64,000 bases of DNA from Viridothelium virens. Its lineage: Eukaryota > Ascomycota > Dothideomycetes > Trypetheliales > Trypetheliaceae. The notes beneath the pieces are model-generated. The model ran no database searches. It saw only the letters and a list, made by a program, of their open reading frames with translations, and was not told the origin of the DNA. Both the position numbers and the translations under genes were made by a program. This document shows positions 993 through 62,013 of the stretch, in pieces (position 1 is the stretch's first letter; each line of letters starts with the position of its first letter). The stretch is from the NCBI GenBank assembly GCA_010094025.1, contig ML991834.1, positions 62,001 to 126,000 of the forward strand, in the 5' to 3' direction.

Positions 993-2646
993 ATGAGTGT
1001 GAAAAAAGCTGCGTTCTCGGCAGCCTTTCTGCGGGCTGATCCCACGCCGGTCGCGAAAGATAGCCTTGCGAGCTTCCACGACGCGCTAGACGAGGTCATC
1101 TCGAAAGGCACCAACACCTCAATCCAGGTTTGACATACCTATAAGCTTTCTGTCCATCATCTTAGTCCGTCATGCTAAACTTTGACGATTCTAGAAGTGC
1201 AAGCTATGGCTGGTGGAAAATGCGGTGCCCTCTGAGGACAGACTGGTCGCCCTTAGAAAGTACCTGACTTCACTCTCCCTCACTGTTACATCACCGGAGC
1301 CCGGCAAAAAGGACCAGAAATCGGCCAAAACACAAACATCGCCTAGAAAGAAGCGACTTCATCTGCTCTACCTGGTAAATGATCTCTTACATCATATGAA
1401 ATGTCACGCGCATCAAGATGACAATTATGTCATGCTCATTGTCATAATGAAGCACCAACTCCCTGAACTCATGAGAGATGCTGCATCATTTGACGCGTCA
1501 AAGAACAAGAAGTTGCACCAGAAGTTACACGACTTAATCACGATATGGGAAGAGAATCAGCACTACCGCAAGGAGTTCTGCAACACACTTCGCGGGATTG
1601 CTGAGAGCGCTGGGAAAGTTTCAGGCGATGCTCAAGCACATGGCGAGGAGACGGCCAATACAATCAACACAACTTCTCAAACTGCAACCAAGAACGTGCC
1701 TTTAGCTCTGCCTTCTACCCATGGCGACCGCACGGCGCATTGGTCTGACCTTCCTGCCGGCTGCATGATGCGACATGTTGCTCCCAATTCTGCAAGACTT
1801 ATTAGACTTCGCGAGATGAGGCAGCTTGAGCTGAACTCAAGAAGTGCAGAGCCGGCAATGGTCGAAGCAGCCAAAACGTCTCTTGCAGAATCTGGCCAGA
1901 CCCGCAATCCGTACTCGCACTATGAAGATCGCATTATCGCTGATATTAATGTCATTGGTCAGTCACCACACCTTAAAGACTCTAGCGAGCCTCGCGTTGG
2001 CAATATTTCCCACGTGTGGACGCCCAAATTTGCTGGAAACACGAAAAGACGTCAACGCGACCGACAGTACAATTACGACGACATCCGAGGCAGGATTACT
2101 GCGAGAGACCCCAACCGCGGTAATCGTAGTCCCAGTCGCAGTGTCGGCCCTTCAAAGCGCCGCCGGCTCTCCTCCTACAGCGGCGACAGTTACTCGCGAT
2201 CTCGCTCAGTCTCACGTAACCGACGATATCACGACGACCGCGACTCCAGCTACTCACGCTCCCGCCCTTCTTCCGGCCACGGATCCTACCACAGTGACCG
2301 TCGCTCAAGTTACGGCCGAAGCCAGACGCGCTCTCGTTCGCCAGCGCCTCGTCGTGGTTCTCGCGATGATCAAACCACGTCCAACCCTGACCCTCGCAAT
2401 CTCTTTCAGTATTTCAACCTGGGAGACCCCCAGCTTGGCCGTGGTTCCAGCCCTGCTGGTCCTCCCGTGGGCGTCGCGATTCCTCCTCCTCCACCTGGTT
2501 GGACATTACCGTGGCCTCCTCCGCCTCCCCCACAAATTACGTTTAATTATCCAGGGGGACCCGGTGATCCAAATGCGCTCGGACGAGGTTGGGGAATGGG
2601 AGGGCAGGGGAGGGGAAGATGGGCCCGAGGTGGGTGGCGTGGGTAA
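993..2646 (+). CDS. CID-domain, SR-rich RNA-processing protein
   Basis: Exons are 993-1127 and 1195-2646 with one 67-bp intron, giving 528 residues. The true start is the ATG at 993 (MSVKKAAFSAAFLRADPTP). The N-terminal 170 residues match a CID (RNA polymerase II CTD-interacting domain), with the landmark helix LHLLYLVNDLLHH and the WEENQHYRKEF segment. The C-terminal half is rich in Arg-Ser dipeptides (about residues 340-440), followed by proline runs (PPPPPGW, PPPPPP) and a Gly/Arg tail. This CID plus RS plus Pro layout resembles CHERP-type splicing and transcript-processing factors, which would place it in the nucleus bound to phosphorylated CTD or to splicing complexes. The exact orthologue is not assigned. 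The 3' end lies in a C-rich to G-rich skew patch (see findings). Confidence 0.85.
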
Positions 2647-5600
2647 GGGGGGGTGGAATGGCCAAAATGGCCAAAATGGGCTCGGGGTACCCTCATTGCA
2701 GTAATTCACGGATACCATCGGGACTTTCTAGACTTGTACTATAATGAATTGCGAATCAATAGATGAAGCCAATGTTGTTTTTCCACCTGGCCATGTGTAA
2801 ACGGAGATGACCTCATCTAGATATCTACGCATGAAGCCCCCAACACCAACGCTACAACATTCTCGTCAAGCCCATGCCGAAACTCCAGAAAAAATTGCCA
2901 TGATCCCCTTGCTGCATATACAATCCCAGTCTAACGTGCACGCCGCAGGAATACCATATGGGGACGCATGCAAGGTTTATTTTCCGAGTCGGACAGGGAT
3001 TGTCTAGCCGACCGGAAGTAAGTCCTGCTTCCCCGGTCAGGCGGAGGTAGGATGTTACGAGGGTTTTGAAGGACAGGGTATCTCGAGCCTAACTAGGTAG
3101 ACGTCTGTCTGTCGATCCGATGCCAAGAGCTATATGTCTGTCGCGAAGATCTCAAGAGAATGTCGAAGTACGTTTGGCCATCATCGAGCGCTTCAGCTCC
3201 AGGTATGCTTGCACCGCTTCCCGGTCTCGGGATGGGACCGTGTTGGACTGTCGGGGCTGAGTGCTCGTATTTCGGAAAGTGGGTGATCGAGGAGGGACTG
3301 TTCGTTGCCAGGACTCGATGGTTGATATTCTTGCGGGCTGAAGGTAGCGGTGATCTTGGGTACGGTTTTCTGAAGCCATACGGGTTGGCGCGCTTGAGGA
3401 AAGACAAGGAGAGGCTGTGGGGATGAGGCTATGAAGGAACAGGATGATTATGTTAATACAAATCAAGAAAGGAGGCAGAATAAGATGGAAGGAGATGACT
3501 GAACAATAAATATGAGGTAGACCAGCTAGGCTTCATTATTAGAAATTGTTGATCACCGCTATTATCTATAAAACTATCGCTACCCGCCAGTTGGGACGGC
3601 CAACTTAGACTTGAAACGCTTATGCAAAGTTGTGCGAGATGGCGTCCTGTCATCTGGGGTCCTGGGCTCGGTAGCCTGATGCGTTACTAGTACTTCAAAG
3701 GTAATGAGAACCCATGTCCGAGGATTGGACGGTAGGTGGTCATGATCTCGGATAATTCTGTATAGCGGGTATTCTCCACGTGTATCGGCATGTGGCCAAT
3801 TCGAGTAAACTTGACGTTGTGAGCGAGGAGTCGGGCCTGATCGCCGAGCCGTCTACAGATATCATTTCTTCTGACTAGGGTCACAAGAACCCTCAGATGG
3901 TAACCATAATCATGCTAGAATGTTTCGATCGAGTGTCAAAGAGGGAGCGGTCAAGACGTCATCTCCGACACAAGTTCAGGGCGGCAGGATTCGGCGACTT
4001 CGATTGGACAGTACCCGAGGTAAAAAGCACAAGGTAAGCACCACGAAAGGACTACCAGAAGTGAGAAGAAGGCGGGATTGCGCCTTGACAAATATTCTGC
4101 ATGAGGGAGGCAGAATTGATGATCCGGAGAATTTCTTAACGTCGCCTCTTCCGCACTTCGTCGTCGCCCGGTTTCCATCGGCGGGAAGTTTTAGCGGGCC
4201 GATATTGAGGAGATTCCAAATCCCACCGACGCCAAACGTCTGACTGTCTTCTCGTTGGATTGAAAGTTTCAGACCCAGCGTCAGCCCTCTAGCTTGAAAG
4301 CCAACGTCAGACCACCATGGCGTTATCACGCGCCTAAACATAGCAATGTGGGGATTTGGAATGTTTGCTTAATCAGAGACGTGTCGGCTCATGCTAAAAC
4401 ATCCTCTTGACTCACAAGCGTATCAATAGGCGGAGCCCTTCTGCCTAAGGCCTATTCGCAGGCGCAGGTCGCATGCGCACTCAAATCCACTCACAGGAAA
4501 GTACAAATTGCTTGCTTAGGGGTTTGGTAGGATTATCTACGTAACGATTACGGTGTGAGAAGATCTGATCAGAGGCGTCGTTCAGAGGCGTCGTCGACTT
4601 TCTTTTCGTGGCTATCATGGAACGTGTTTTCTTATCATTTCTCAAGCCTTCAGCACAAGTATCACGACGAACACTAGGCTTACTGCATACATGCTACCGA
4701 AGAGGAAAACGCTGTCCCGGCAATCCTTCGACGTTAGGCTCTGATGTGGAAGTCCGGCTGATAACACAGTTGAGTTGAAATTGGATCTTCGACTACACAT
4801 GCAAACCCTGTCGTAATACCTGAGAGGATACATTACACGAAGTCAAAGATTGCTAGCTTGCTAGAAGACGCCTTAAACATCTAGAGGCTTTGGAGATCGA
4901 AGAAGGAGTTCCTATCTTTATGAATGACTTAGACTATCTACATAGTCTCCGAAATTGGCGGTCATTTCCCGGCCCGAAGTACGAGTATGATTCGTGTCTC
5001 AAATTTGAACTGACCAGACACTAATTAAGCGCTGTCTTTCCTCCTGCTCAGCTTTCGTTTTGAATGTGACTTGTTAGATGTCTCCACTTTTACAAATCTC
5101 CCTCCTCGTATACCTCCTTTCTCACTTCAAAACTTGATACTCGTGAATCTTTGGCAGACGGTGCGCTGATCCCCATGGAGTCTGAATCGGTGATTCTCAT
5201 TTCCTTTCGATCATCAGATCATGTGTATCCTTCGCACACGAAGCTTTTCGCGCATGAAGGTTGACCGAATCCTCTACTATTTCTGGTAGCGATGCCCTCT
5301 TAAAAGCCGCGTCGTCGTTGATTACTCGACAATGACATGATACAGATACCCTATTGTACATGAGCTCTCCCTCATCAAAACCTACTATCATTTGGTTGTC
5401 GCGATCGGGGATTGCTTTGAATTTCCTAATCAGTACACTTCTACCTGAGATGCCCTCGACCGTCATTCATGAATATGACAAGCAGCTAGCGTGTGGATGA
5501 CCGGGGAAAGTAGGGTGCTCGGAAACAGAGGGCAGTCTGGGTACGAGAATATGTCTCGATAATTGCATTGTGGTCAAAAGACATCTTCACTACAGTTGAT

Positions 5601-13161: not shown

Positions 13162-13257
13162 TCATTCGGACCACGCATCTTTCTCTCAACTGAGCATTTC
13201 AAATCCACCATAAGTGCCAGTGTATTAACTTCTTCCGCGACACTTCCCGCGCCATTT

Positions 13258-29893: not shown

Positions 29894-30495
29894 GCTAGCC
29901 AAGATTTAGGTGGTTGGATGCACGGATTCTGCGAAGTTTGCGTGACAATCTTCGGGGTTCGCACCCTACGAGCAGGTGCTCGGCTGGTACCGTCGAATTC
30001 AAATTCATGAATTGTGTCACGACTTCTCTTGTCTCATACTTCTCTTGCGCATTAGAGCCAATATATCTGCTGTCAAATTAGCAGACTGAATCACAAGAAT
30101 CAACTGGGATTTTTTTCATATTATAAACCAGTCCAAGCCAGATCGGGTCTCGTCGTTTCCCTCGAATTTTCCGCAATAACTCTGCCCCTTCACTCTGCAG
30201 ACAGCTTTTACCGACCGGACTCCCCATCTATTACCACGGCAGTTATTGTCCGCCCGGATCATGGGACCGAAGAATAAGTACTGCAGCTTGTAGTGGTATA
30301 CTATTAACACTTTCTCGGGGTCGGGGCTAGGCTGCCCCAAAAGCGCAGCACAAGCCTCGAAGAGAAAAGCCGGGAGCTTGAACAGCTGATGTATTTGTTG
30401 CATACAATGCGTTCTGCACAGTCAAGCTTGGCAATAGCCTGATTAAGAAAATATCCACTCACCTCGTCTTTACGTCTCTCCACAATCTCTGCCTC
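29894..30495. other. Intergenic between convergent genes
   Basis: About 600 bp holding the 3' ends of the MARVEL-like gene (+) and the second SDR (-). A reverse frame at 30116-30403 (95 codons) is not recognised. No terminator-like structure is obvious. Confidence 0.3.
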
Positions 30496-31320: not shown

Positions 31321-32350
31321 AGTATTAGGGAGGAAGAGGTTGAAGAGGTGGGTACCTACTAATGCTATTTTCTAGAAAGCAAACTTGAAATTAGACGAAT
31401 GTGGGATTGACACCGGCGTTTAATTGTCAGGTACCTTCGGCACTCGAGGAGAAGTACTTCGGTATATACGTCATTGTTCATAGGATTTAATTGCTGTCCT
31501 ACCTTACCGTACCCTTTGCAGCTCTTCATTACAATATCGCTGTCAGGAGCTTTCACCTTGATGTTTATACCAGTCTGGGTTATCAAAGCGTCAAATTTAT
31601 ATCCTTCGATAAATTGGCCGGATCCTGCGTGCAAAGATTCAGAGCGCTGTTCTATGCACCAGGAGATGACAGACTCCTTCAGCTCATCAATATGGCGTCG
31701 AAAACTGGCATTATACAGCAGGCTCGCCAGCTAGCGGGGCAAGGCTTAATTATGACTTCAACTTGTCTTCAACCATTTCGTTTAAGACCCTCTGGTAGAT
31801 GCTCAGGCACGAACATGTAATCGTACCTATTGGTCGAGCTGCGCTGGATTTCTTTTAAAGCTCCCAGGCTGAATCAGGAAGTGCACAACCTTTTGCTCAG
31901 CACCAATCGCCGATCGATGTTGTTGCCTTACTGTTCAGGACGAAAGATGGTGTGGCAAAAAGCACATTTGACCCGGGCGATGTCCAATCAAAACCATGTC
32001 GGGCGTTTCTCATACCTACCTACTTGCACCTTAGCTGGGCGGTTACGAGGCTCCCGTCTTAAAGCCCATGACACCCTGTTGTATATCGGTGAAAGAGGTC
32101 TCTACCGTCGCGTTGAGTACAGCCCCTCAGAGACTATGTTACCTCGAGAAGACGTCTAATTCGATTGACACTACTTTCATCGTCACCAACGATATCTCGA
32201 CACTCGACTTCACGGCTTCAGCCGAAATAGAAGCAGAGGCAGTGCCATGCTAGAGGTGGCCACGGAAGTACTAGGCGGATATTTCGAGATTTAGCCTCAC
32301 AGGCTCGAGCACAAAGAGAGCACAGAGTCCTACGTTCTGCACCACCGAGT
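31321..32350. other. Intergenic with unrecognised fragments
   Basis: About 1 kb. A reverse frame at 31365-31634 includes a protein-like run (VKAPDSDIVMKSCKGYGKVG), and a forward frame at 31830-32159 has 109 codons. Neither is recognised and both may be remnants. Confidence 0.3.
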
Positions 32351-37688: not shown

Positions 37689-38201
37689 TCTATGGGATCC
37701 ACAAATGCTAAAGACAGCTTTAGTTCTGCTGACCGTTCAGCTGAGAGTACAGCGGCTGCAGATGATGATTTATCGAAGGACCGTATCGTAGTACATTAAC
37801 TACATCTCCTCAGAGTACTAAGATCGAGAATGCAGGCATTCTCATAGACTTGGGCTACAATCTTGTCACTCATCTCATGAAATCAAATCATAGCCCCAGT
37901 GTAGTCGACTTAAACTACACAGCCGTAGGTCGGATGTAGAAGAGTAGACATCCAGTCTGGATTATCGAATTCGAAGGCATACATACACCCCACAATAGAA
38001 TACAGTCGGCACAAAAATGCCAGATGTAAAACAAAGCTCAAGAATCCAGAATGCCATGAATCCGACAGAGAAAGGAGAAATTATAAGATGCGAATCTGGC
38101 CTTGCACGACCATTAAAGACCGCTGGCTTTCATCCCCTCCCCTCTGCCCCCATCCTTCCCTTTCCCTCCCTTCCTCCAATTCCACCAGTCGGCCCCGCCT
38201 T
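37689..38201. other. Intergenic, with a possible lost C-terminus
   Basis: After the last stop of the decayed gene the same frame stays open for about 35 codons with Ser-rich sequence (SMGSTNAKDSFSSADRSAES), which may be former C-terminal coding. The rest, up to the 3' end of the glycogen synthase gene, shows nothing else. Confidence 0.35.
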
Positions 38202-40631
38202 TCACGCCACATCCCCATTCACCAACGCCGCGCCCGTCCCCAGCACCACCGGCGTCCCTGTCCCCGTCCCCGTCCCACTACCACTACCCATCGTAGCGCT
38301 CTCGCCCTTGGTCTTCAGCGTCAGCGGAAACGGATACTCATCGGGATCCTCCTCCTCCGGCAGCTTCCAAGCGATGTAGTCCTCGGTGCTGAGGCCCTCG
38401 CGTCCCTCTTGCAGGGAGGCGAAGTCGCCGGGCGTCATCATGCCGGAGCGGTCGCGGGGAGAGCCCGGGGCGGAGAGCGGGCGCGAGACTTTCAGCTCGG
38501 TGCCGTCGAAGAAGCCGGGTTCTTCGGAGGTGTCGGTGTCGAAGGAGGTGGGGTATGCTGGGGTGAATATTAGTCGGAGCATATTTTGGAGGTGATGGGA
38601 AGGGGGGTGGTGAGAGGGGAGGTGCTGCTGTGGGAAATTGGATTGTGGATAGAAAGAACGCACCTCGGCGCAGGGCGAGCTGTCGCGCCTTCACGTACTC
38701 CATGCCCATGCGCTTCCAGTCTAGGAGATCGCTTAGTCGCTCGGTGCGGTTGCGCTGATTGATGCGCTGGCGCTTGCTCTTGCGGGTGAACTCGAACATG
38801 TAGTCGCACAATTGATTGACGCTGTCGTCGACGCCCTTCATGCGGCGATCGACGATGTAGATGCCATAGTCGGCTGCGTTCTCGATTAGCTCCTCCATGT
38901 AACATCCAAAGCCTGATAGATTCGTCGTGATGCTCGGTACGCCCATGACTGTGCACTCGGCAGGTGTGTAGCCCCAGGGCTCGTAGTAGGAGGCGAAGAC
39001 ACCCATGTGGGTGCCGCGTACGAAATCATCGTAGTCCAGGGGGAGCACAGGGTTCGCAGAGTTGAGGAATTCGGGATGAAAGATGACTTTGACGCGGTCA
39101 GAAGGGTGGTTGAAGAGCTGGCACCGCCGGATTTGGTTCAGGATCGGATCATCACTGTCATTGACCATGTTATGCGTAACAATTGGTGGAAGCGTTGTTC
39201 GCTTCATTGCGAAGAGTCGCCGCCGGAGCATGATTTTATCTGTCGACGTGATTAACTCCTTGTCTTCAGGGAGTTCTTGACCCTCGTGCCATGCAAGGCT
39301 TCGCTCGAACAACTTCTTTCCAACATTTTGTTCGACCACGCGCACCGTATCTTGGAGTGATTTGATGACGGCTTGGCCTTTGAGTGCTTCGACTGTAAGG
39401 GACGTGGTTTGCGCTGGCATGATAATGAATGCAACGACAGTCGTATTTGATCCTGCACTCTTCATACGGTGGTTCAAACGCGCCAGAGACTCGATGAACA
39501 TGTCCACACCTTTATTTCGGTATTCGTATCGTCCAGCGGTGAACAAGTAGAGAGTATTTTCCGGATCGAAGTCATTATGGCCGTAGAAGTGTCCTCGGAC
39601 AAAGTCGGCGATGCGCTGTTTGGACTGCTGATGTAGATTTTGAAATTCGTGGGTTGCTGAGAATTTTTTGACATTGAGACCATTAGGTAGGACGCCATCG
39701 GGTTTCCTCTTGAGTAGATGTTCGCTTTCATAGGCCGTAATGTGGGAGACTGTGGTGAAAACGTCGGCAGAGTGTGCTGCTCCGCGCTCAATGCAGTATC
39801 GATGGTAGATGCCACGCTTGCCAGCTTCAGCATCAACATCGAAGTATTGGAGATTGTTATAAAAATCCACCGATCCTGCACAAAGATATCTGCCGAGTAG
39901 GGTGGCATGTGTGGTGAAAATGGTGGTCACATCTATCCGTCGTTTTCTGCAGAGCGGTAGAGCAACGCCAGCAAGCCACTCGTGAAATTGTGCAACAACG
40001 GCTCGTTCCTGTTCGTGATAGACATACTGTACTTCATCAGCTTCGCTCACATATCATTGTAAGTCAGGATAACTTACTTCGCCCAAAAACCATGCAATAA
40101 CGTATCCAAAAACTATAGCCTCATTCGTTTCCCCATCGTCTGGAGGTGAGGGTATGCCAGCAATTGACCAGAGGTCTCCCTTCCACTCGTCTAGCTTATA
40201 GTATGCCGTCTTGGTGTCGAAAAGCAGAACTCGAGGTGCTCCGTCAATGAGCCACCGTCCGTACAATGTTTTGATCCCTCGGTCTCCCATAGACTTTATT
40301 GTCTTGATCAATGCAGGGTCCTTGGGCTGAATTTCTTCCACTTCGACTTGTGCCTACCCACTCAGCATATGAGACCCAAAAGTTCTCTAGAGCGTAACAT
40401 ACAGAAGCGTAATTGAGGGGACCGAGCATGGTGTATCGCGCGCCATACTCGGCAGTGGTGACTTGAGCTTTGGACTTAAGGACTGAGTAGATACCGCCGA
40501 CTGTCCAGCAATCAGTACCAAACCTTCAATTCAAGTATTCAAGTGTTCAACTATTTACCTCGATTTGCGACTTCTGTTGCTACCTCAAAGAGGAGGTGAT
40601 TGCTCACGTCCCTTCGAGGTAAGTCGCCCAT
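38202..40631 (-). CDS. GSY1: Glycogen synthase
   Basis: Five exons on the reverse strand join in frame: 40559-40631, 40403-40500, 40078-40353, 38664-40026 and 38202-38557, giving 721 residues. The start reads [20 protein letters not shown], with [20 protein letters not shown] across the first intron. Other family landmarks are [61 protein letters not shown] and [20 protein letters not shown], the last containing the catalytic EPWGYTPAE region. The enzyme (GT3 family) transfers glucose from UDP-glucose to glycogen in the cytosol. The Ser/Pro-rich C-terminus ([15 protein letters not shown]) matches the phosphoregulated tail of fungal and animal enzymes. Length is normal. The 3' exon is a skew patch. 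Confidence 0.96.
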
Positions 40632-41979: not shown

Positions 41980-43718
41980 ATGAAAAATGTCCAGCCGTTT
42001 TTCCAGCCGCTCCCGAGGTCTGGCCCAACCTCTATCTTTTCTAGAATCTCTCGAAGAATCCCCGTCGCCCAAAGCTCGCAGTTTTGTATCGTATCACGTC
42101 AGAAAATACATACTTCAAACCCATTCGATGCCCATCATCGGGCCGTTTCCAAAATCTCCTCCGCCGTCCAAGATTTTCACCGCCGTGGCGAGCGCTTTCG
42201 AATCACTCACGGTTCCACAAACTCCACTCGACGATCCAAAAAAGGCAGAAATCTAATCGATACAAGCGAGCTTTCAAATGTATTACACATTGATACGAAA
42301 GCACGAACCGCAATGGTTGAGCCGAATGTGTCCATGGATCGATTAGTCGAAGCGACACTGGAGCACAGTCTGATACCACCAGTAGTAATGGACTTCCCTG
42401 GCATTACTGTAGGAGCTTCGGAGTACTGAAAGAGAAGTCTCTATGGCTAATGAGGGGTAATAGGTGGGCGGTGGCTATGCGGGAACTTCAGGAGAGAGCA
42501 GTTCATTCAAATACGGGTTCTTTGATCGGACACTGAACTCCGTTGAGATGGTCCTTGCTAACGGGGAAGTCCTCAATGCTTTTGATACGGAAAATGCCGA
42601 TTTATTTCATGGTGCGGCCGGTGCTGTGGGAACAATGGGCGTGACGACGCTGGCGGAGCTGAAGCTTGTGAAAGCCAAGAAATACGTACGGACAACGTAT
42701 CATCTCGCTCGTAGCGTCGATGAGGCGATCAGGGTGATTGAGAAGTCAACAAATGACCCGATGCTGGATTTTGTGGATGGTATCGTCTTTTCAAAGGACC
42801 AAGCCGCTGTCATTACTGGCTACATGACCGATGAAAGCACCTCTCGAATCCAATGCTTTAGCGATCCTTGGGATCCGTGGTTCTACATACACGTCCAAGA
42901 CGCCATCTCCAAGCGCCACAGTCCCGTTACCGAAACCATTCCTCTCGCCGAATATCTCTTCCGCTACGATCGCGGCGGCTTCTGGGTCGGCAAATCCGCA
43001 TTCGAGTATTTCCATTTTCCCTTCAATAAATACACCCGCTGGTGGCTCGACGACTTCTTACACACACGGTATTGTCCCCCTCCTCTCTCCGCTTCCTTGA
43101 ATTCCATCGAGATCCCAATTGACACCATCTTTCAGCATGCTCTATACCGCCCTTCACGCCAGCCCCTACGCCCGCCCTTACTTCGTCCAAGACCTCGCCC
43201 TTCCGTTCTCCACAGCCTCATCCTTCATCAACCATGTCGACGAAACCCTCTCCATCTACCCTCTCTGGCTCTGTCCGCTTCGCCAATCTCCACTCCCTAC
43301 CATGCACCCACATCATGCATCCTCACACCCGTCGCCCCTTCTCAACATTGGGGTGTGGGGATGGGGTCCACGTGACCCGCGCGCCTTCGTGGCTGCGAAT
43401 CGGGAGCTGGAGAAGAAGGTCAGGGACCTGGGGGGAATGAAGTGGCTGTATGCGCAGACGTATTATGGGGAGGAGGATTTTTGGGGGATGTTTGATAGGG
43501 AATGGTATGAGGATCTGAGGGAAAAGTATCAAGCAAAGGGGTTGCCGAGTGTGTGGGACAAGGTGCATGTGGATGAGGAGTCGGAGGTCAGAGCGAGAGA
43601 GGGTTGGTGGGCATGGGTGAAGGGACTGTGGCCGGTGCCGGGGGTTTATGGGATTTGGAAGGCGATAAGGAGTGGAAGTTATGTGGAGGCGAGGAGAGCG
43701 AGATGGAGGGGGAAGTGA
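41980..43718 (+). CDS. FAD-linked oxidoreductase, DHCR24/Dwarf1-like
   Basis: Three exons, 41980-42408, 42464-43068 and 43136-43718, join in frame to 538 residues. The start is an ATG (MKNVQPFFQPLPRSGPTSIF); the Arg-rich N-terminus could be a targeting sequence. The FAD_binding_4 domain shows FRITHGSTNSTR, VEPNVSMDRLVEATLEHSLI, MDFPGITVGGGYAGTSGESS (created across intron 1) and NADLFHGAAGAVGTMGVTTL. The C-terminal part has VQDLALPF and YPLWLCPLR, as in delta-24 sterol reductases. Family members reduce sterol side-chain double bonds with FAD and NADPH; in fungi the natural substrate is not established. The last exon carries a C-to-G skew flip near 43390. Confidence 0.88.
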
Positions 43719-44067
43719 AACGAAGTATGGATTTGCGAGGACAGAGTTGCCTGATTGAACCTATTTGCTAGATCTGTGATCTTCAACCCTCTCTGCAGGG
43801 GGCCTGATTTGGGAGAGGTGAGAGAATAGACCGCATTGGAGACTGAGTACCGCTAGAGACTTTCCATAGAGTCTCTCATGGCGTTAGATACTACCGCAGC
43901 GATGCGAACTTCCAATCGAAGACATTTCTCTTCTACTGTGGTAGTAAAAAGAGGCTGCACAGGTCTTTTTGCACCAAAATATCACTAAGCTTTCTAGCTC
44001 TGGGTATACGGACCACTCCAAAACCACTGATCTCCCGTGCCCACACTTCTGGCCCTCAAACAGTCTC
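43719..44067. other. Short convergent intergenic region
   Basis: About 350 bp between the 3' ends of the FAD oxidoreductase (+) and the NIF3-like gene (-). Nothing else is seen. Confidence 0.3.
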
Positions 44068-45542
44068 TCAAAGCTCCGCCTTACTAATCATAATCCCATA
44101 CGGATCGCGATCCACTTCACTCACCTCCACATTCACCTCCTCATCCTCCAACGCCTCCTTCCAATCCTCCGACATCCCCTCCGTTCCCTGCTCCTCCCTC
44201 CTCACCATCGCCCACTCCTCTTCCACCTGCGCCTGCAACTGCCCCCTCAACACACTATGCAAAAACCCCCTCTCCGTATTACTATGAAACAGCGCAATGA
44301 CACTCTGTCCACGCTCAATCGCCGCCAGCGCCTCATGATGGCTCAGCTCCCCCGTAAACAGCAAGTCGACGTCGTCGAGCCCCGCGAATAACGAGCCGCC
44401 GGACCCGGCGCAGATCCCCACGCTCGACACCATCACGGAGTCGAGGCTCGCGCCTTGTGGGATCGCGATCGGGAAGCCTTTCGGGTTGCCGAGTCCTCGT
44501 CCGATGCGCTCGATTAGTGCGAGGAAGGGCTGGGGGCGGGGAAAGCGCACGATGCGGCCCATGCCGGCGCCGGGGTGGGAGGGTAGCGAGAGGGGTTGGA
44601 TGGTGTGGCGGGTGTGGTCGAAGGCGTCGCTGTGAAGGAGGAGGGGTGGTTAGCGAGAAGAGTTTGGATGATGCGGAGTGGGAGAGGGCCTATGGGCTTA
44701 CAGCTTGAGATCTGGCTCTTTGATGTCGGCTTGAGAAGGGTGGTGTTGCAGCATGTAGACTGGGCGTTTTGGTGGTGCAAGTGACATGTCCTCTTGTGTA
44801 TCCGTGCCTTTATCTTTATCTGTGTCTTTATCTGTGTCTTTAGATTTTGTGCCGGCATCTTGAGCCCCGTTCTCCTTGGCGTCTTTATCTTCTTTCTTTT
44901 GCGGCACGCTGACGGGAGTCCCCGTCACGATATCTGCAAGCCAATCCCCAAGACCACCCGGTGCAGCGTCGATCGCAGTATGGGGACAGTATACCTGAGG
45001 TTCGTAAGTCCCAGGCCGAGCGTTCAGCAACGGATTTTCATTCTCGTACACTGATCCCCTCAGCCGCTAATCTCAGTAACGACTGCTGCTGACTATTCGC
45101 TAATGTGAGGGATTTGAGGCCTCTGAAGATGATTGGATCTACGCTTGGAGAGAAATCAGGTCGAGACTCCAAAAGGCATCTCTGGTTGATACGCACGGTA
45201 GGCCACTATGACGGAATCTTGTCGCTCAATGGCTTCGTCTACCACTGCCTTGGTGAGGTCCACGGTGAGGAGAATCGAGTTCATCTGTCTCCGTAGAGGA
45301 TCGAACGGAGCTTCTAGAAGCACTTGACCAGAACTTTAGTGACATGCTTCTCCAAAAAAGTGGACGCGCACTCACGGCCAGTATTATCCCAGCTCTTATC
45401 TGCTAATTGTTCGGGATATCTGTCGAACCGTGTAAGTATATGACTCTTTCGATCGCTGCATCTGGGGGCCGCTTGCTTACAGTTTCCTCATTGCATTGAC
45501 GACCGCCCTTGAGAACGGGGCTGTAGTCGGTTTCGAGGCCAT
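44068..45542 (-). CDS. NIF3-like protein (NGG1-interacting factor 3 family)
   Basis: Six exons on the reverse strand join in frame: 45481-45542, 45376-45419, 45197-45322, 45050-45138, 44702-44994 and 44068-44629, giving 391 residues. The start MASKPTTAPFSRAVVNAMRK is followed by LYPEQLADKSWDNTGLLLEA, the classic NIF3 opening. Metal-site motifs are VAYHPIIFRG, YCPHTAIDAAPGGLGDWLAD, GELSHHEA and HSNTERG. NIF3 proteins are conserved dimetal proteins of unclear biochemistry, linked to GTP cyclohydrolase-like folds. A Lys/Asp-rich low-complexity insert (TKSKDTDKDTDKDKGTDTQE) interrupts the fold after the third motif, longer than in bacterial relatives. The 3' exon is a C-to-G skew patch. Confidence 0.9.
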
Positions 45543-46501: not shown

Positions 46502-48205
46502 TCAATGCATCCCCATATCCGCCTGCGTACTCACCACTCTCTGACACTCCGCCAAAATCTTTGCTTGACGCGCCACATCTCCCAACCTCCCAATGACCTC
46601 CTTATTCCCCTCCACAAACCCCAACAACGCATACGGAATGCCCACCTCCTCACAAAACTCAATCACCAACTTCTGCGCTCTCCGCAAATTATGCCTCGGC
46701 ATGCGCGGAAACAAATGATGCACCGCCTGAAACTGCAAGCCGCCATGAAAGAAATCCAGCCACTCGGGGCAATCGACATCCATAGTGGTGCGCAGCATAC
46801 GCTGGGGGAACGACTCGGCGGGGCCCAAGTCGGACGTGCTCATGGCGAAGTGGCTCAGCGTGATCTGCACATGCACCACCATCGGAATCATATGGCAGAC
46901 CATGAAGAAGGCGAAGCGATCCCAGCCAGTCGGGATGCTGCGGTAGACGGTGAGGTAGCCGAACCACGTCCAGAAGAAGAGCTGCCCTGCGAGCTCCAGC
47001 CAGCGGTGCCAGGCGGCGGGGCCCTTGCGGGGGCCGAGCCCGCGCAGGATGTAGTCCCAGGACAGGAAGTACAGGTTGAAGCGCGCGAAGGTGAGGATCG
47101 GGTAGTACAGGTAGTGCTGGAATTGCAGCATGAAGCGCGCGACGGGGTCGTACGTCATCTCGCGGTCGTAGTAGGTGCTGCGGAGCGAGGAGAAGAAGCG
47201 GTGAGAGATGGCGAAGAAGGGCATGTGCTCGATGTCTGGATCGTGTTCGGGTGAGTTGGTGATGATGTGGTGCACGTTGTGGTTGCGCTTCCACCAGCCT
47301 TCGCTCATGCCGCCGAGGAAGTCGGCGATGATGATCCCGATGATGGTGTCGGTGTGGTAGGAGTGCGTGATGCCCATGTGGCCGGCGTCGTGCGCGGTGA
47401 AGGTGAGTTGGTGCCAGAAGCAGCCGAGGGACATGGCTGAGGGAATGTACCATCCGTGATGGAGGAAGTACAGAAAGAGGGTGAAAAGGAAGGCATAGCG
47501 GATGAGTTCGATGAGATAGGCAGTGTAGTTACATTGATACAGGCCTTCTGCGTGAAGTCGTTCATCAAGGAGATGGTATTTCTGAACAATGTTTTGTTGT
47601 GTGGTAGGATCAAGGGGCGGGTATTTGGCTAAGTCGAAGTCGAGTTCCTTTTGCGTTCTTGCGTCCAGAGATGCAATACCGGCATCCGTACGCTTCTGAT
47701 CGATGCCTTCGTTCGAAGATAGGGAAGTCGCTGATGTTGCTCGACTTGTTGAACGTGTGGCCTCGGTCCTTCGTCGCCTCAGTCTTTGCTCGTCCGATTC
47801 TTCAAAAATATCCTCATCCACCAAGCTCTCTGCACTTGAAGAGCTCTGATCATCAGTATCTAGAGATGGCCATTCAATCGTGTCTTCCTCAAGCTTTTTG
47901 AATTTTCCTCCTTGAATTGGTGGTATGAAGTTCTCCCATCTGCCCTCAATTCGTCCAATCTGGAATTTGTCCATCCGTTGGAGAGCATCGGCGGAATGTA
48001 GTGCGTTGGCTTCGATTGTAGCATCTCTTCCAATTATATGCAGGATAGCTTTGTCACCTCCAGGGTGATATGGTAGCCATGCGTCGACCTTTAGTACCTT
48101 CCCATTCTTGATGATGATTTTCCTTCCATCGGCAATGAGGGTCTCGATTTGTCGACGGGATAGAATTGGGTCATCTCGAGGTTTCCGAGCCGAGATACTA
48201 GCCAT
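46502..48205 (-). CDS. Delta-8 sphingolipid (long-chain base) desaturase
   Basis: A single exon encodes 567 residues (MASISARKPRDDPILSRRQI). An N-terminal cytochrome b5 domain carries the heme motif HPGG (47-50) and a second His near residue 70. After a Ser/Asp/Arg-rich linker (about 105-170) comes a membrane desaturase with the three His boxes HDAGH (272-276), HNVHH (309-313) and QAVHH (493-497, with Gln replacing the first His as in front-end b5-fusion desaturases). This is the standard fungal delta-8 sphingolipid desaturase that modifies the long-chain base of glucosylceramides in the ER. Length is normal. The 3' half is GC-rich with a C-to-G skew flip near 46790. Confidence 0.93.
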   Translation of the reverse strand: MASISARKPRDDPILSRRQIETLIADGRKIIIKNGKVLKVDAWLPYHPGGDKAILHIIGRDATIEANALHSADALQRMDKFQIGRIEGRWENFIPPIQGGKFKKLEEDTIEWPSLDTDDQSSSSAESLVDEDIFEESDEQRLRRRRTEATRSTSRATSATSLSSNEGIDQKRTDAGIASLDARTQKELDFDLAKYPPLDPTTQQNIVQKYHLLDERLHAEGLYQCNYTAYLIELIRYAFLFTLFLYFLHHGWYIPSAMSLGCFWHQLTFTAHDAGHMGITHSYHTDTIIGIIIADFLGGMSEGWWKRNHNVHHIITNSPEHDPDIEHMPFFAISHRFFSSLRSTYYDREMTYDPVARFMLQFQHYLYYPILTFARFNLYFLSWDYILRGLGPRKGPAAWHRWLELAGQLFFWTWFGYLTVYRSIPTGWDRFAFFMVCHMIPMVVHVQITLSHFAMSTSDLGPAESFPQRMLRTTMDVDCPEWLDFFHGGLQFQAVHHLFPRMPRHNLRRAQKLVIEFCEEVGIPYALLGFVEGNKEVIGRLGDVARQAKILAECQRVVSTQADMGMH

Positions 48206-48829: not shown

Positions 48830-50638
48830 ATGACTTCTGTCGAAAATCTGGCCAAGGAATGGCTTCGTATTGATCAAGATCCATCCACGAGAGAAGAAAT
48901 CTCTGGGCTCCTCTCCGAAGGTAACCATTCTGAACTCGAAGTCAGACTCAAACACCGCATAACATTTGGCACCGCGGGTCTACGTGCTCGAATGGAGGCA
49001 GGATTCTCTCGCATTAACGCTCTTACAGTCATCCAAACATCGCAAGGATTCGCCTCTTACGTACTAAAGCAGGTCACCAATGCTAAGAGGAGGGGCATTG
49101 TGATCGGATTTGATGGTCGTCACAACAGCGAAAAATTCGCCAAGTTGGCTGCCGCAGCCTTTGCTGCGAAAGGTATCAAGGTTTGGTGGCTTGAGATTTT
49201 GGTACATACTCCTCTGGTACCGTTCGCCATTTCTGAGTTACGTGCAGCCGCAGGCGTCATGATAACTGCAAGCCACAATCCTCCCCAGGACAATGGATAT
49301 AAAGTTTACTGGGAGAATGGGTGTCAAATCGTCTCGCCGCACGATTCCAGAATCACAAAAGCTATATTGGCCAATCTAGAGCCACTCTCATGGAATGATG
49401 CTGTCGAAGAGCAGAGTCTGCTTGTCGAAGCCGTACTATCACAAATGCAAGAGGCCTACTTCAGAGCTATTCATCGGGCCGTCTTTGTAGAAAGAAATCA
49501 GATGCAGCCACAGACTGAACCTATCCGATTCGTCTACACGCCCCTGCACGGCGTTGGACTCCCTTACTTGACCAGAGCCGTTCAGGACCTCAATCTTTCA
49601 GATTCAATGACAGTAGTCTCGCAACAAGCTCATCCAGACCCTGACTTTCCCACCGTCAAATTTCCCAACCCTGAAGAAAAGGGCGCCCTCGATCTCGCCA
49701 TTCAAACCGCAGACGCCAATAATATCGACCTTGTCCTGGCCAACGATCCCGACGCCGACCGCTTCTCCGCCGCGATCAAAGTCTCCTCCATCTGGCACCA
49801 GCTCACAGGCAACCAAATCGGCATCCTCCTCGCCTCCCACATGCTTGAGACCTACACCCACCAACAACACCAAGAAGACCGTCTCAGCGCCAACACCCGA
49901 CCCTCCAGCTCCACGCAACCCCCGAAACTCGTCATGCTCGCCTCCGCCGTCTCCTCCCGCATGCTCTCCGCCATGGCCCACGCCGAGAATTTCCATTTCG
50001 TTGAGACGCTCACCGGCTTCAAGTGGCTCGGCAACGCCGCCCAATACCTCGCTCGTTCAGGCAACTACGACCCGATCTTCGCGTTCGAGGAGGCCATCGG
50101 CTACATGTTCCCCACCGTCGTCGCCGACAAAGACGGCATCGCTGCCGCCGCCATCTTTCTGCGCGCGTGTCTGCGCTGGCGGGCCGACGGGGGTCATTCG
50201 CCGTGGGAGAAGCTGCAGGCGCTATACCAGAAGTATGGCTTCTTTGCGGAGGAGAACTTCTACGTCGTGTCGCCGTCTGTGGAAGTGACGGATGCGGTGT
50301 TTGCGCGCATACGCTCGATGGGTAAGGAGGAGGCGGAGGTAGGGGAATTGGTGTACCCGAAGAGGCTGGGGGAGAACCGTATTGTTCGGTGGCGTGATCT
50401 TACGATCGGATATGACTCTGCGACTGCGGATCGTGTTCCAGAGCTTCCGGTACAGAAGGATGTGCAGATGTTGACGGCTGAGCTGGAAAACGACGTTCGC
50501 TTTACCGTGCGGGCATCAGGGACGGAGCCGAAGGTGAAGGTATATATTGACGCGAAGGCGGAAGATATGGACGGGGCGGAGAGGAAGGCGCGGGTGGTGA
50601 GTGGAGCGGTTCGACAGGAGTGGTTGAAGGGACTATAA
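48830..50638 (+). CDS. PRM15: Phosphoribomutase / phosphoglucomutase-2 family
   Basis: A single exon encodes 602 residues (MTSVENLAKEWLRIDQDPST). Family features are FGTAGLRARMEAG (47-59), the phosphoserine loop TASHNPP with Ser148, the Mg-binding loop DPDADR (306-311), the sugar-binding loop TLTGFKWLGNAA and FAFEEAIGYMF, and RASGTEPKVKVYID near the C-terminus for phosphate binding. These are the hallmarks of yeast Prm15/Pgm3 and mammalian PGM2, which interconvert ribose-1-phosphate and ribose-5-phosphate and link nucleoside salvage to the pentose phosphate pathway. Cytosolic, normal length. The second half shows a very strong C-rich (49680-50130) to G-rich (50160-50640) strand switch. The symbol is by family resemblance. 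Confidence 0.93.
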   Translation: MTSVENLAKEWLRIDQDPSTREEISGLLSEGNHSELEVRLKHRITFGTAGLRARMEAGFSRINALTVIQTSQGFASYVLKQVTNAKRRGIVIGFDGRHNSEKFAKLAAAAFAAKGIKVWWLEILVHTPLVPFAISELRAAAGVMITASHNPPQDNGYKVYWENGCQIVSPHDSRITKAILANLEPLSWNDAVEEQSLLVEAVLSQMQEAYFRAIHRAVFVERNQMQPQTEPIRFVYTPLHGVGLPYLTRAVQDLNLSDSMTVVSQQAHPDPDFPTVKFPNPEEKGALDLAIQTADANNIDLVLANDPDADRFSAAIKVSSIWHQLTGNQIGILLASHMLETYTHQQHQEDRLSANTRPSSSTQPPKLVMLASAVSSRMLSAMAHAENFHFVETLTGFKWLGNAAQYLARSGNYDPIFAFEEAIGYMFPTVVADKDGIAAAAIFLRACLRWRADGGHSPWEKLQALYQKYGFFAEENFYVVSPSVEVTDAVFARIRSMGKEEAEVGELVYPKRLGENRIVRWRDLTIGYDSATADRVPELPVQKDVQMLTAELENDVRFTVRASGTEPKVKVYIDAKAEDMDGAERKARVVSGAVRQEWLKGL

Positions 50639-55977: not shown

Positions 55978-56368
55978 GCACGATTAAGGAAGTATTGGAG
56001 GCTTCAGAACAATATGACTTTCTAGTCGATTATGTACATAGTTTTCTGGGTCCTTCGTGTTACAGTATCGATACTACCTATTTCGGCAAGCGGAGCACGG
56101 CTCAATTTAAGGCGGCAGTCACCGGAGACAGAACTACCTTAGAGGCGGTCTCGTCCCTATTCGCTAGGTGTATGTAGCCCTTGGACACTGCTGGACCATC
56201 GAATGTTATCTCTCCTTCCGATTCCATGCCACTTTGGAACGGGATTGATACAACAATCAAGTTTCCCGTAACAGTTCTTAGCTACCACTTTTCCAACGTG
56301 TTAACCCACAGCCGACATGAAAAGCCGCGCTCCAAAATTGAGGGGCCCCCAGCAAGGTGCCATTCTCC
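55978..56368. other. Intergenic
   Basis: This holds a short unrecognised frame (55995-56177) and the left member of a direct-repeat pair (56324-56355). Nothing else is seen. Confidence 0.3.
56324..56355 (+). repeat. Direct repeat, left copy
   Basis: This 32-bp sequence contains CCAAAATTGAGGGGCCCCCA and matches 28 of 32 positions of 58345-58377, with one gap. It ends 13 bp before the stop codon end of the NYN-like gene. The core GGGGCCCC is itself palindromic. Confidence 0.6.
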
Positions 56369-58219
56369 TCACATCTCCAGCAACTCCTCCGCATACGCAT
56401 CCAACTCAATCACCCGAAACTTCCCGGGCCCCCACCCCTCCACCCAGCTTCGCTTCCGCCACGCAGCGCTGATATTCCTGCTCCAGCTCACGAGCTCGAC
56501 CGACCATCCCTTCTTCAACGCCCGCTCAACCTGCCGTAGGAAGCCCTGCGAGTACTCCGCTTCAGCCGCATCGCCCGTCGCAAGCACCATAGTGCTGGGC
56601 GGGGAGTAGTCGATAACAGATTCGCAAATCTTCAGATGCAAAATCTCATCGACGCCTTGCTCGACCCATTTCGCAGCAGTCATAGTCGGGGTTTCCTCCC
56701 CCTCCCCCTCCCCCTCCTCATCATCATCACCATCCTCATCATCATCAGAAGGCAGGTCAGAGGTATGCTGACTCCGCTGCCGCCGGTGCTGCGGCGTGCC
56801 CCTCTGGCCCCTCTGTCCCCCCGGGGATTTCGCCGCCTCGAAGAACTTCTGGCGCGCCGTAAGCTCCTTCGCCTTGTGCACCTTATCCAGCACATTAAGC
56901 TCGTACCCGATACGCGCAGCCTCATCGAAGGCGGGGACGGCAGGCGTGGAGCCGGCGAGGACGCGCTTGGCGACGGGGCGGCGGCGCTCGAGCAGCAGCG
57001 CGAGGCTACCAAATGAAAGATCGACGCGCGGGACGCGTGCGGAGAGCGGAATGCCCCGCGCGCGTTTGAGCTGGTCGTGGAAGCCGATGAAGATGTTGGA
57101 TGCGTCGACGAAGACGTGGATCCCGGCCGGGTCGAAGCTGTGGTTTACGAGCAGCGAGGGAGACACGAGCGTGCGTCGGTCGGCGGGGAAGTCGGCGATT
57201 AGTTTTAGGATGAGCGCCCAGTAGCGGTCTTCGCCTGTGCGGAGGGTGAGTGGTTGGATGGTTGGGCGGCGTGGTGAAACGCGAGGGAGTGACGAGTTTG
57301 GATGGGGGCCACCTGATACTGGAGCTGGATGTAGAATCGATTGAGAGGTCTTAGGCGTTTGAAACCCCGGTTTTGGGAGGGGTTGTTTCCACCTTTGTCG
57401 CAGCTCCTGAGTGAGTTGTTCGATAGCTGATCTTCTATTATTCGCGTGCTGTTGTATAGCGGGTAACTCCGAGCCTAGAATGGCCGAATTGCTCTCGTCT
57501 CCAACGGCAGAGCAAATTCTGGGCACTTGTATTGAAGCCGGTCGGATGCCCTCAGAAGTCGACTCAGTGTTTTTCGCGTCAACAGTTCCATTTGATGTTC
57601 TTGGCCTCAAATTATACCCGTGAGTGGCGACTGGTGTTTGAGGTACAGTATTGAGCAGATGTACACTAGCTTTCTTCGCTGGCGCTCCTTTAGTCGCTCT
57701 TCGTTCAGTCTCGGAGTCTAAATCACTAATTGCTCTGACTCTATTCAGACGCTCAGATTCAGCTCTTTCCTTGCGTCTTTGCTTCTTTCTTCGGTTTCTT
57801 TCTTGCTTAGATGTAGCGGTATAGTTCTTTGAGCCTTCACTTTCTTCCAAAGTCTGCGACGCATCATAGTCATCTGTCAGATCCTTCCATTTCACCTCCT
57901 TCGTAGTATGCCGGTATACTGCCCCGTCAGAGGCATAGTCTTCTCTTCCTGGTAGCCGGGTAAAGTCGAAGGCTTCACCAGCCGAAACGACAGGTGTTGG
58001 AGCATCTTCTGGTGCGCCTAGGTATTCCCAGAGTCTTGAAAAGTTCCCAAGACCCGTCAACGCTTCTGTATTGTCTTTCTGATGACTTGCTACCGCGTTC
58101 TTGGCAGAATCTGGGTGGATTGGTCGCTTCTCTAAGGGCGTAGCATGCGGTGGGTCGGTGGTATTTGACAATGAGTTGACAAGATCAAAGACGTGTGAAA
58201 AATCCCAAGAGCTTGGCAT
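56369..58219 (-). CDS. NYN-like (PIN-fold) domain protein
   Basis: A single exon encodes 616 residues (MPSSWDFSHVFDLVNSLSNT). The N-terminal half is hydrophilic with a basic stretch (QERNRRKKQRRKERAESERL, about residues 140-160) that could bind nucleic acid or serve in nuclear targeting. The C-terminal half begins HVFVDASNIFIGFHDQLK, the opening strand and acidic residue of NYN/PIN-like ribonuclease domains, and later has STMVLATGDAAEAEYSQGFL and the strand WSVELVSWSRNIS. A very acidic run (DDDEDGDDDEEGEGEGEE) is inserted in the domain. NYN proteins are metal-dependent RNases or RNA-binding scaffolds; the RNA target is unknown. Direct repeats flank the gene. Confidence 0.75.
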   Translation of the reverse strand: MPSSWDFSHVFDLVNSLSNTTDPPHATPLEKRPIHPDSAKNAVASHQKDNTEALTGLGNFSRLWEYLGAPEDAPTPVVSAGEAFDFTRLPGREDYASDGAVYRHTTKEVKWKDLTDDYDASQTLEESEGSKNYTATSKQERNRRKKQRRKERAESERLNRVRAISDLDSETERRATKGAPAKKASVHLLNTVPQTPVATHGYNLRPRTSNGTVDAKNTESTSEGIRPASIQVPRICSAVGDESNSAILGSELPAIQQHANNRRSAIEQLTQELRQRWKQPLPKPGFQTPKTSQSILHPAPVSGGPHPNSSLPRVSPRRPTIQPLTLRTGEDRYWALILKLIADFPADRRTLVSPSLLVNHSFDPAGIHVFVDASNIFIGFHDQLKRARGIPLSARVPRVDLSFGSLALLLERRRPVAKRVLAGSTPAVPAFDEAARIGYELNVLDKVHKAKELTARQKFFEAAKSPGGQRGQRGTPQHRRQRSQHTSDLPSDDDEDGDDDEEGEGEGEETPTMTAAKWVEQGVDEILHLKICESVIDYSPPSTMVLATGDAAEAEYSQGFLRQVERALKKGWSVELVSWSRNISAAWRKRSWVEGWGPGKFRVIELDAYAEELLEM

Positions 58220-60757: not shown

Positions 60758-62013
60758 ATGGACTTTTGGGCTGGCTACATAAGTGGAGCCGCGGGAATCT
60801 TAATAGGCAATCCACTAGGCATGTCTCGCTGGGCGTTGTGCCCTAGTTCAGCTCGAAGTGGCCCCATTTAACTCTTATCAAGCCTTTTAGATATCATCAA
60901 AACCCGTCTCCAGGCCGGTCATAACCCTTCCCTTCTATCCGCCGATCTATCAGATCGAAAGCATCTAGCCACTAAATCTGGACTTGCCTCGCGAGCCACA
61001 TATGCTTCTCTATTTCGAGGTATCTGTCGCCTTCGTTTCCTCATCCCTGGTCCCCATCCCGTTCAATTGCTTACAGATCCACACCACATCAAAACAGCAA
61101 TGAATGACTGATACCAATTCCCTGTATTCACAGGTGCCGCAGCACCTATCGCAGGTTATGGCGCCCTCAACGGCATACTGTTCTTCTCCTACAACCGCAC
61201 CCTGCATCTTCTGAACTCCGCCCCCACCACTTCGTCCTCCTCTTCACCCACCCCCGACTGGAAAACCTTCCTTGCAGGTGCCATCGGCGGCCTCGCTACC
61301 TTCGTCGTCTCTGCTCCAACCGAACTCGTCAAGTGTCGCGCCCAAACCCACATCCCCCTCAACCCAGGGGCTCCCCAGCCGAACTCCTGGACTATCACGA
61401 AGCAGCTCTGGCGCGAAGGCGGTCGATGGGGTCTTCCTGGACTGTATATCGGCGGCGGGGTGACCAGCGTCCGCGATGCGGTGGGGTATGGCTTCTAGTA
61501 CGTTTTCCCAACTCATACTCTTCAATTCTAATCTCGATCTTTCGCGCGGTTCACAAGCATCGGGTGGATCCTCATGAGGAAAACCACATATTTCATGAGA
61601 TGTTCTAAAAAATTTCAAGCAAATACTGACCTTCTCCTAGCTTTTGGACCTACGACACCCTCACCACTACCCTCCACTCCCCCGCCGAATCCCCACTCCG
61701 AGCTCACCTCATCACCCTATGGTGTGGTGGCCTCGCTGGGTGCGCCACCTGGACGAGCGTCTTTCCGCTCGACGTCGTGAAGACGCGTCTCCAGGCGCAG
61801 GCTACCCAATTATCCACCATATCATCTATCGAGGAGTCCCATGGACAGCCATTGCAACGCCCGAGCGCTTGGGCGGTCGGGCGAGTAGTGTGGCAGCAAG
61901 GAGGCTGGGCGGGGTTTTGGAGAGGGCTTGGGGTGTGCAACGTGCGGGCGTTCGTCGTGAATGCTGTGCAGTGGTCTGTGTATGAGAGCGCGATGCGCAT
62001 GTTAGCGTCGTGA
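60758..62013 (+). CDS. Mitochondrial carrier (SLC25) protein
   Basis: Four exons, 60758-60818, 60891-61019, 61134-61497 and 61641-62013, join in frame to 308 residues. The three signature repeats are present: GNPLDIIKTRLQAG, SAPTELVKCRAQTH and VFPLDVVKTRLQAQ. The first is restored only if the first intron is spliced with a GC donor (GCATGT) and an AG acceptor. Six membrane helices and internal duplication make it a normal-length inner-membrane carrier. The PTELVKCR second repeat is typical of the amino-acid, ornithine and carnitine branch; the substrate remains open. Exons 3 and 4 show the C-rich to G-rich change seen in other core genes. Confidence 0.9.

Follow-up and report, generated by a model that had tools for sequence, protein, structure and literature searches.

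Recurrent C-to-G strand switches near the 3′ ends of Viridothelium virens genes, with G-rich arms that mostly end near the stop codon

C-to-G switches in strand composition occur at bidirectional CpG-island promoters, and GC-biased gene conversion makes GC peaks at recombination hotspots. For plants and some fungi, a GC skew at transcription starts, in the form of a C-skew, has been described (PMC555766; this and the other papers cited by accession are represented here by excerpts). Around human meiotic breaks, mutation is strand-asymmetric, with the single-stranded, resected strand losing C (PMC7615360). Of the 2578 hotspots reported for Zymoseptoria tritici, 1435 are exonic, and the excerpt gives the conversion bias at intragenic hotspots as extremely weak or absent (PMC5844332). 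Codons tend to become AT-rich toward the gene end across 91 species, and G-ending codons are scarce there in eukaryotes (PMC6892556). In a gerbil paper, "GC skew" denotes GC enrichment and not strand skew (PMC7403616). Here we analyze a 64,000-base stretch of the Viridothelium virens genome (bases 62001-126000 of contig ML991834.1, a contig of 178,018 bases from the 30.7-Mb assembly, which has 175 contigs), hereafter the window, which carries repeated modules consisting, on the sense strand, of a C-rich arm, a switch and then a G-rich arm. We found no description of such C-then-G arms in the literature, in a search that was thin on subscription papers and preprints and hence is no proof of absence.

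The sampled sequence totals 256,018 bases, or about 0.8% of the genome, and all modules and peaks were counted in it unless stated otherwise. It comprises the window, the remainder of the same contig minus bases 60001-62000 (112,018 bases) and eight 10-kb stretches from other contigs; the ends of four CCT chaperonin genes were added afterwards as an out-of-sample test. Using a three-state segmentation (background, C-arm, G-arm) that was blind to the previously listed sites and whose emission values were picked after the first profiles, we obtained 43 C-arms and 48 G-arms, with 33 C-to-G adjacencies versus only 2 in G-to-C order, both of the latter outside the window. Ten of the 33 modules lie in the window, 16 in the rest of the contig and seven on other contigs, i.e. 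23 outside the window. The C-to-G switch is thus real and recurs beyond the window, and the order of C then G on the + strand, which a preliminary description of this DNA had reported, is borne out in the larger sample. The segmentation called ten of the 11 sites listed in that description and left uncalled the one at 20030, which had been termed mild (score 0.205, GC 0.488). Module density is about one per 8-11 kb of sampled sequence, which extrapolates to roughly 3,700 modules in the genome from the 23 outside the window or roughly 2,700 from the seven on other contigs.

GC peaks, defined as 600 bp with a GC content of at least 0.58 and compared for skew between their left and right 400 bp, showed the same order: skew rose from left to right in 33 of 34 peaks (24 of 25 outside the window) and changed truly from negative to positive in 25. 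A template learned from seven window sites and scanned over 192,018 held-out bases gave 14 matches at a threshold of 40 and seven at 60, versus one and zero for a control template with C and G swapped; the looser thresholds of 20 and 30 gave 18 versus 5 and 15 versus 3. For aligned profiles, we used switch centres from 31 of the 34 peaks. Because these centres were picked for a large skew change, the overall skew at them arises partly by construction; the split by site class, the agreement of the two strands, the GC-peak count and the segmentation are not affected by the choice.

Gene models were open reading frames (ORFs), checked with Pfam where possible, and three stops were corrected by reading the frame beyond an intron. 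This exposed an artefact, in that three switches seemingly at stop codons are actually upstream of the true stop, the ORFs having overrun an intron in the wrong frame. Counted on ORF ends before this correction, 24 of 27 switches are located beyond the ORF middle and 17 of 27 in the last third, which agrees with the reported position toward the 3′ end. In the 26 genes with corrected ends, the distance from switch to stop ranges from 94 to 961 bp (median 399). One peak gene (C64_L 44934) is left out of this set due to an intron that interrupts the gene end; it enters the automatic count below through its ORF end, and its true stop, determined by eye, is 96 bp further.

The outer edge of the G-arm follows the gene end. 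A G-arm was called in 23 of the 26 genes and ends between -63 and +96 bp from the stop in 22 of them, the remaining one ending at -318 bp, and its length correlates with the switch-to-stop distance (Spearman 0.92, 23 genes). In an automatic test, the G-arm outer end fell at most 100 bp from a sense stop in 25 of 33 modules; 2000 shifted controls gave 2.6 on average and never more than 10, and the outer end of the C-arm gave 1 of 33. Eight modules were unmatched automatically: three fit smaller or overlapped ORFs by eye (stops at 43718, 62013 and 11247), two have a G-arm that is 151 bp or 318 bp short of the stop, and three (61409, C64_R 1562 and C64_R 40319) are unexplained. Across the stop, skew declines from 0.52 in the last 30 coding bp to 0.42, 0.26, 0.20, 0.10 and 0.06 in successive 30-bp bins. 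At 400-500 bp from the switch, coding DNA has a skew of 0.49 and a GC content of 0.59, and DNA past the stop 0.14 and 0.45. When genes were grouped into far, middle and near stops, the G-arm stretched with the gene end and the C-arm stayed steady at about 400-450 bp, being somewhat shorter in the seven genes with the nearest stops. C-arm lengths in the segmentation range from 188 to 1040 bp (median 444; 25 of the 26 genes) and are weakly correlated with G-arm lengths (Spearman 0.32, p 0.14; 23 genes); in the short SDR gene, the C-arm extends to the gene start.

The two nearest neighbours of module genes, one convergent at 198 bp and one tandem at 58 bp, are unaffected over the 450 bp that face the module gene (skew -0.07 and -0.18, GC 0.48 each). 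Among the 24 neighbours listed, nine have a facing GC content of at least 0.54; eight of these overlap a module of their own and the ninth (L008 8135-9232, 737 bp away) a lone C-arm. In 32 long ORFs without a GC peak, the final 225 bp had no more than a small excess of G, and 48 putative starts showed a slight C excess and no switch. In the out-of-sample test, one CCT gene (L025) has a C-arm and a G-arm, the latter ending 56 bp before the stop codon. In a second (L027), a G-arm of 987 bp terminates 40 bp short of the stop codon, and of a C-arm only the end falls within the retrieved sequence. The third (L024) has no arms, and the fourth (L026) contains G-rich blocks with no clear arm pair.

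We then asked what changes in base composition. At the 31 aligned switches, C rises to 0.43 and G falls to 0.15 on the left, while G is 0.40 and C 0.18 on the right; GC is about 0.65 at the switch and about 0.49 beyond 700 bp, a rise of about 15 points, and A/T skew is small. At two-fold sites up to 400 bp to the left, C/(C+T) is 0.84-0.93 on both gene strands and G/(A+G) 0.27-0.35 in three of four bins (0.54 in the switch-adjacent bin of + genes). To the right, G/(A+G) is 0.75-0.85 and C/(C+T) 0.32-0.40 in three of four bins (0.60 in the switch-adjacent bin of - genes). On the outward strand, G is therefore gained over A and T over C on both sides of the switch, which is the usual sign for a displaced non-template strand. 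This is not a plain AT-to-GC bias, because G is depressed in the C-arm. Four-fold sites reach C values of 0.51-0.62 on the left and G values of 0.50-0.55 on the right, whichever strand the gene is on; as far as we know, such an asymmetry, with 0.50-0.62 of one base and then of its complement across the switch, is unusual inside conserved nuclear genes. Third codon positions change most, with G at 0.55-0.59 in third positions 50-450 bp downstream of the switch, and positions 1 and 2 shift as well. Two predicted introns within C-arms are likewise C-rich and G-poor (glycogen synthase, 106 nt, C 0.44 and G 0.08; an MCM gene, 55 nt, C 0.53 and G 0.05); a third, at a C-arm edge, has C 0.37 and G 0.13, and an intron just outside a G-arm has C 0.16 and G 0.19.

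The bias thus acts on DNA, being present at synonymous sites, at codon positions 1 and 2 and in two introns in C-arms. Codon usage and amino-acid composition fail as an explanation, because synonymous sites flip on both gene strands and the two C-arm introns share the bias; amino-acid composition alone, an alternative raised in the preliminary description itself, leaves the two-fold and four-fold sites and the introns unaccounted for. That description had further reasoned that an identical order in + and - genes rules out transcription-linked skew. The logic is wrong: the switch is its own mirror image, and since C-to-G reads C-to-G on either strand, no sense-strand cause is excluded. Nor does the arm anatomy agree with a symmetric process centred on a point, given a G-arm that stops at the 3′ end of its gene however long it is, a C-arm of about 450 bp whose outer end has no tie to a gene 3′ end, and two untouched nearest neighbours. 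From the earlier interpretation, we retain a DNA-level, strong and recurrent bias that is not a matter of codons or amino acids, and we abandon the strand logic and the symmetry. Taken together with the two untouched neighbours, the gene-bounded G-arm disfavours simple models of meiotic breaks or origins and favours a process that is polarised outward and confined by the gene.

Modules tend to favour core genes. They were found in genes for CID, SDR, glycogen synthase, NIF3, desaturase, phosphohexomutase, BCS1, TPR, YEATS, THOC7, CH-domain (fimbrin-like), GH31, class-I tRNA synthetase, histidine kinase, MFAP1, cyclophilin, 51-kDa complex I subunit, flavin reductase-like and ubiquitin hydrolase proteins, two MCM proteins and two WD40-like proteins, one of them below the Pfam cut-off. 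Of the 32 long ORFs without a peak, 20 were scanned with Pfam, and these encode ankyrin, TrkH (two ORFs), STAND, sugar transporter, HET, AMP-binding reductase, DAO, Kelch, alpha-galactosidase, DEAD helicase, Vps54 and two DUF proteins, with six lacking a match; the STAND protein bears a fungal Goodbye domain, and the HET domain is on the same contig, both suggestive of a filamentous ascomycete. The association with core genes stated in the preliminary description therefore stands as a tendency and not as a rule, the DEAD-box helicase, Vps54 and one CCT gene being without a module. Two of the 32 ORFs carry arms in the segmentation, L016 7317-9821 a complete module and L014 6776-7702 a solitary G-arm that terminates close to the stop, so that modules pass gradually into weaker forms. 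A less pronounced C-to-G switch at 13668 in the RNase H gene of the window (+ strand, 13162-14034; score 0.28, GC 0.55) was not called by the segmentation, and module strength seems graded there too. Real antisense genes opposite modules were rejected, with no Pfam match in any of nine antisense ORFs. Antisense frames of more than 300 codons exist (e.g. window 30382-31299 and L002 3380-4456) and are probably a by-product of arm composition. An Rfam scan of the window gave no match at gathering scores.

The segmentation called the following modules in the window (window coordinates; Pfam support, stop offsets and one predicted intron are given where available).

2108..2687, + strand: module of the CID-domain gene (Pfam CID), C 2108-2553, G 2553-2687; the ORF stop ends at 2646, offset +41.
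30454..31352, - strand: module of the SDR gene (Pfam adh_short_C2), top-strand C 30454-30848, G 30848-31352; it spans nearly the whole coding sequence (first ATG at 31320), and the sense G-arm ends 41 bp beyond the stop.
38119..38687, - strand: module of the glycogen synthase gene (Pfam Glycogen_syn), top-strand C 38119-38413, G 38413-38687; the true stop, from reading the frame by eye, is at about 38202, and the G-arm ends 82 bp past it.
38558..38663, - strand: predicted last intron of the glycogen synthase gene, inside the C-arm (sense C 0.44, G 0.08), from its splice pattern with coordinates set by hand.
42889..43749, no strand assigned: module at the gene previously named an FAD oxidoreductase, C 42889-43349, G 43349-43749; the stop of ORF 43101-43715 (+) is 31 bp before the G-arm end at 43749, and neither + ORF at this locus has a Pfam match.
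44012..44783, - strand: module of the NIF3-like gene (Pfam DUF34_NIF3), C 44012-44436, G 44436-44783; stop offset +55.
46507..47528, - strand: module of the cytochrome-b5/fatty-acid desaturase gene (Pfam), C 46507-46784, G 46784-47528; stop offset -6.
49617..50631, + strand: module of the phosphoglucomutase/phosphomannomutase-family gene (Pfam), C 49617-50166, G 50166-50631; stop offset -7.
56345..57385, - strand: module in a 628-codon ORF without a Pfam match, C 56345-56926, G 56926-57385; stop offset +23.
60902..61491, + strand: first module of the carrier-like gene, C 60902-61409, G 61409-61491; the G-arm ends near the ORF end at 61498, probably an exon end.
61648..61997, + strand: second module of the carrier-like gene, C 61648-61862, G 61862-61997; the ORF stop at 62013 is 16 bp past the G-arm.

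The carrier name fits the translation by eye only, the two ORFs tested there having no Pfam match. Just downstream of the phosphohexomutase gene, positions 50751-51750 are AT-rich, with the lowest values in the GC profile (0.376-0.386 in 500-bp windows). At 21605, just past the 3′ end of the STAND ORF, we observed a C-to-G switch with a score of 0.38 and no GC peak (GC 0.52). One of the two G-to-C adjacencies lies in L008 463-1923 (contig positions 126463-127923), a G-C-G block that precedes a - strand SR/RRM-like ORF on the upstream side. Its top strand is G-rich over about 1 kb, and it is possibly a non-coding leader that is C-rich in sense.

Based on these findings, we infer a strand-polarised substitution or repair bias that works outward from an intragenic point and, on either side of it, enriches the strand leading 5′-to-3′ away in G, and in T relative to C. 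In the model that we prefer, tentatively and with less than even confidence, transcription diverges, or R-loops form, from a start site inside the gene. The sense RNA would halt at the normal terminator of the gene, which would account for the outer edge of the G-arm, and a short, unstable antisense RNA would account for a C-arm only some hundreds of bp long. In either arm, mutation or repair would act asymmetrically on the single strand that is displaced, and biased gene conversion may add to the effect. In agreement with the model, the outward strand is G-rich with T over C on both sides, and the sense arm ends at the terminator, with the stop codon taken as its proxy. The unaffected nearest neighbours, the C-rich introns in two C-arms and the two CCT genes whose G-arms end shortly before the stop codon also count in its favour.

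Several observations weigh against divergent transcription. The main objection is that ordinary promoters, as represented by the 48 putative starts, leave no such footprint, and the 32 long ORFs without a GC peak show almost no skew; general transcription is therefore no driver, and a special transcript or a germline stage must be assumed. The bias also far exceeds the transcription-linked asymmetries known to us. No switch motif was found beyond a Markov null in the 33 modules; the candidate binding motif CTCGCGC, present in nine of the 33, was rejected on the grounds that the commonest 7-mer under the null reaches a mean of 8.5 and a maximum of 12 (200 simulations). Lone arms occur as well, in that the C-arms and G-arms called yield only 33 C-to-G pairs, and in the WD40-like gene C64_R 16641 the G-arm stops at -318 bp. 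The carrier-like gene has two switches, one per probable exon, which raises the question of exon-bounded modules.

Among the alternatives, intragenic meiotic hotspots are possible but rather unlikely in our judgement. Breaks would occur at the switch, and strand-asymmetric repair during D-loop extension, together with conversion bias, would let the outward-growing strands gain G until chromatin or the chromosome axis stops the tract at the 3′ end of the gene. GC is indeed maximal at the switch, the strength of the bias would suit a fixation bias, and the extrapolated 2,700-4,000 modules suit a number of hotspots. Break machinery is indicated by a SPO11-type domain in the genome (TP6A_N match at C75, E 3.4e-13), and fungal hotspots can be intragenic, as excerpted for Zymoseptoria tritici (PMC5844332). 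However, over the whole range of switch-to-stop distances from 94 to 961 bp, the G-arm reaches just to the gene end and its length follows that end, whereas the outer end of the C-arm tracks no gene end, and a convergent gene end 198 bp away is unaffected. G is not favoured in the C-arm, hence there is no plain AT-to-GC bias as in GC-biased gene conversion; instead, the bias has a strand preference, with C/(C+T) high but G/(A+G) low on the left and the mirror image on the right. A search with a DMC1 model gave one strong gene and one weak match: the best matches are two pieces at one place (contig C27, L023) that we read by eye as RAD51, and with the other match weak (E 1.1e-8), DMC1 may, on this one search, be absent from the genome. 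Biased repair at meiotic breaks, which the preliminary description had thought fitting, is disfavoured by the gene-bounded G-arm and by a sign opposite to that of resection-type mutagenesis at human breaks in the excerpt of PMC7615360. The gene boundary of the G-arm rules out a free symmetric break or origin model, and a break in the 3′ intergenic gap affecting both flanks is disfavoured by the unaffected nearest neighbours (198 bp convergent, 58 bp tandem). Intragenic breaks with outward DNA synthesis would be possible if the tract stops at the 3′ end of the gene. Conversion mediated by cDNA is disfavoured as well, because introns persist in C-arms and share the bias.

Selection on gene ends, in which a G-rich sense arm aids pausing or termination of RNA polymerase through 3′ R-loops and the C-arm confines it, seems improbable to us. 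It agrees with a G-arm that is anchored to the gene end and reaches slightly past the stop, and in human positive skew at 3′ ends is linked with termination; yet it would require selection to act on silent and intronic positions by the hundred, across thousands of genes, and about half of the sampled long ORFs manage without arms. Extra RNA folding and mirror complementarity were not detected either. An RNA hairpin between the arms was rejected on this basis (mean fold z -0.38, sd 1.47, versus within-arm codon-block shuffles in 26 genes), as was a fold-back of the RNA 3′ end, for which arm lengths are too weakly correlated (Spearman 0.32, p 0.14). We consider codon usage, amino-acid composition or translation-linked selection near the stop very improbable: arms end near stop codons and third positions change most, but two introns carry the bias, skew fades over about 100 bp past the stop and not in one step, and the general trend in 91 species, as excerpted, is the reverse (PMC6892556). 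Least probable of all is short-range replication initiation at the switch, which the preliminary description had also proposed and which the arm anatomy contradicts. Leading strands have a G/T excess, with which the sign of the outward strand agrees, but the skew does not continue with the fork and disappears at the gene end or about 450-700 bp out, extrapolation gives thousands of sites, and nearly all sites are in genes.

More broadly than divergent transcription, we suspect, at something short of an even chance, a DNA-level process not described before in this fungal lineage, which would start inside genes, work outward with opposite polarity, stop at the 3′ end of the transcription unit and rewrite the last kilobase of thousands of core genes. 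If so, the genome would hold a readable map of start points. A cause in transcription would expose hidden intragenic initiation, and one in recombination could make break sites readable from sequence. The stop of the arm at gene ends links base composition to transcription units. With either cause, codon-usage statistics, phylogenies and gene prediction would be distorted in this lineage, the last by long false antisense ORFs.

Compared with the known systems, the modules resemble start-site and bidirectional-promoter skew in being a local asymmetry tied to a transcription unit, and divergent transcription gives C then G; unlike it, they switch within coding sequence close to its 3′ end, with a GC increase of about 15 points, and putative starts have no switch. 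With gene-conversion peaks they share GC peaks of about 1 kb that reach amino-acid-changing sites, but they are strand-polarised, with G depressed in the C-arm and C in the G-arm, and bounded by the gene end. They parallel human meiotic breaks in the mirror-image asymmetry on either side of a point; the human asymmetry, however, has the opposite sign on the resected strand and a kilobase range, and the excerpt describes no gene boundary (PMC7615360). As in the 3′-end codon bias excerpted for 91 species, composition shifts toward the stop codon, but that bias is AT-rich (PMC6892556), whereas the modules have a third-position G of 0.55-0.59 and two introns that follow the C-arm.

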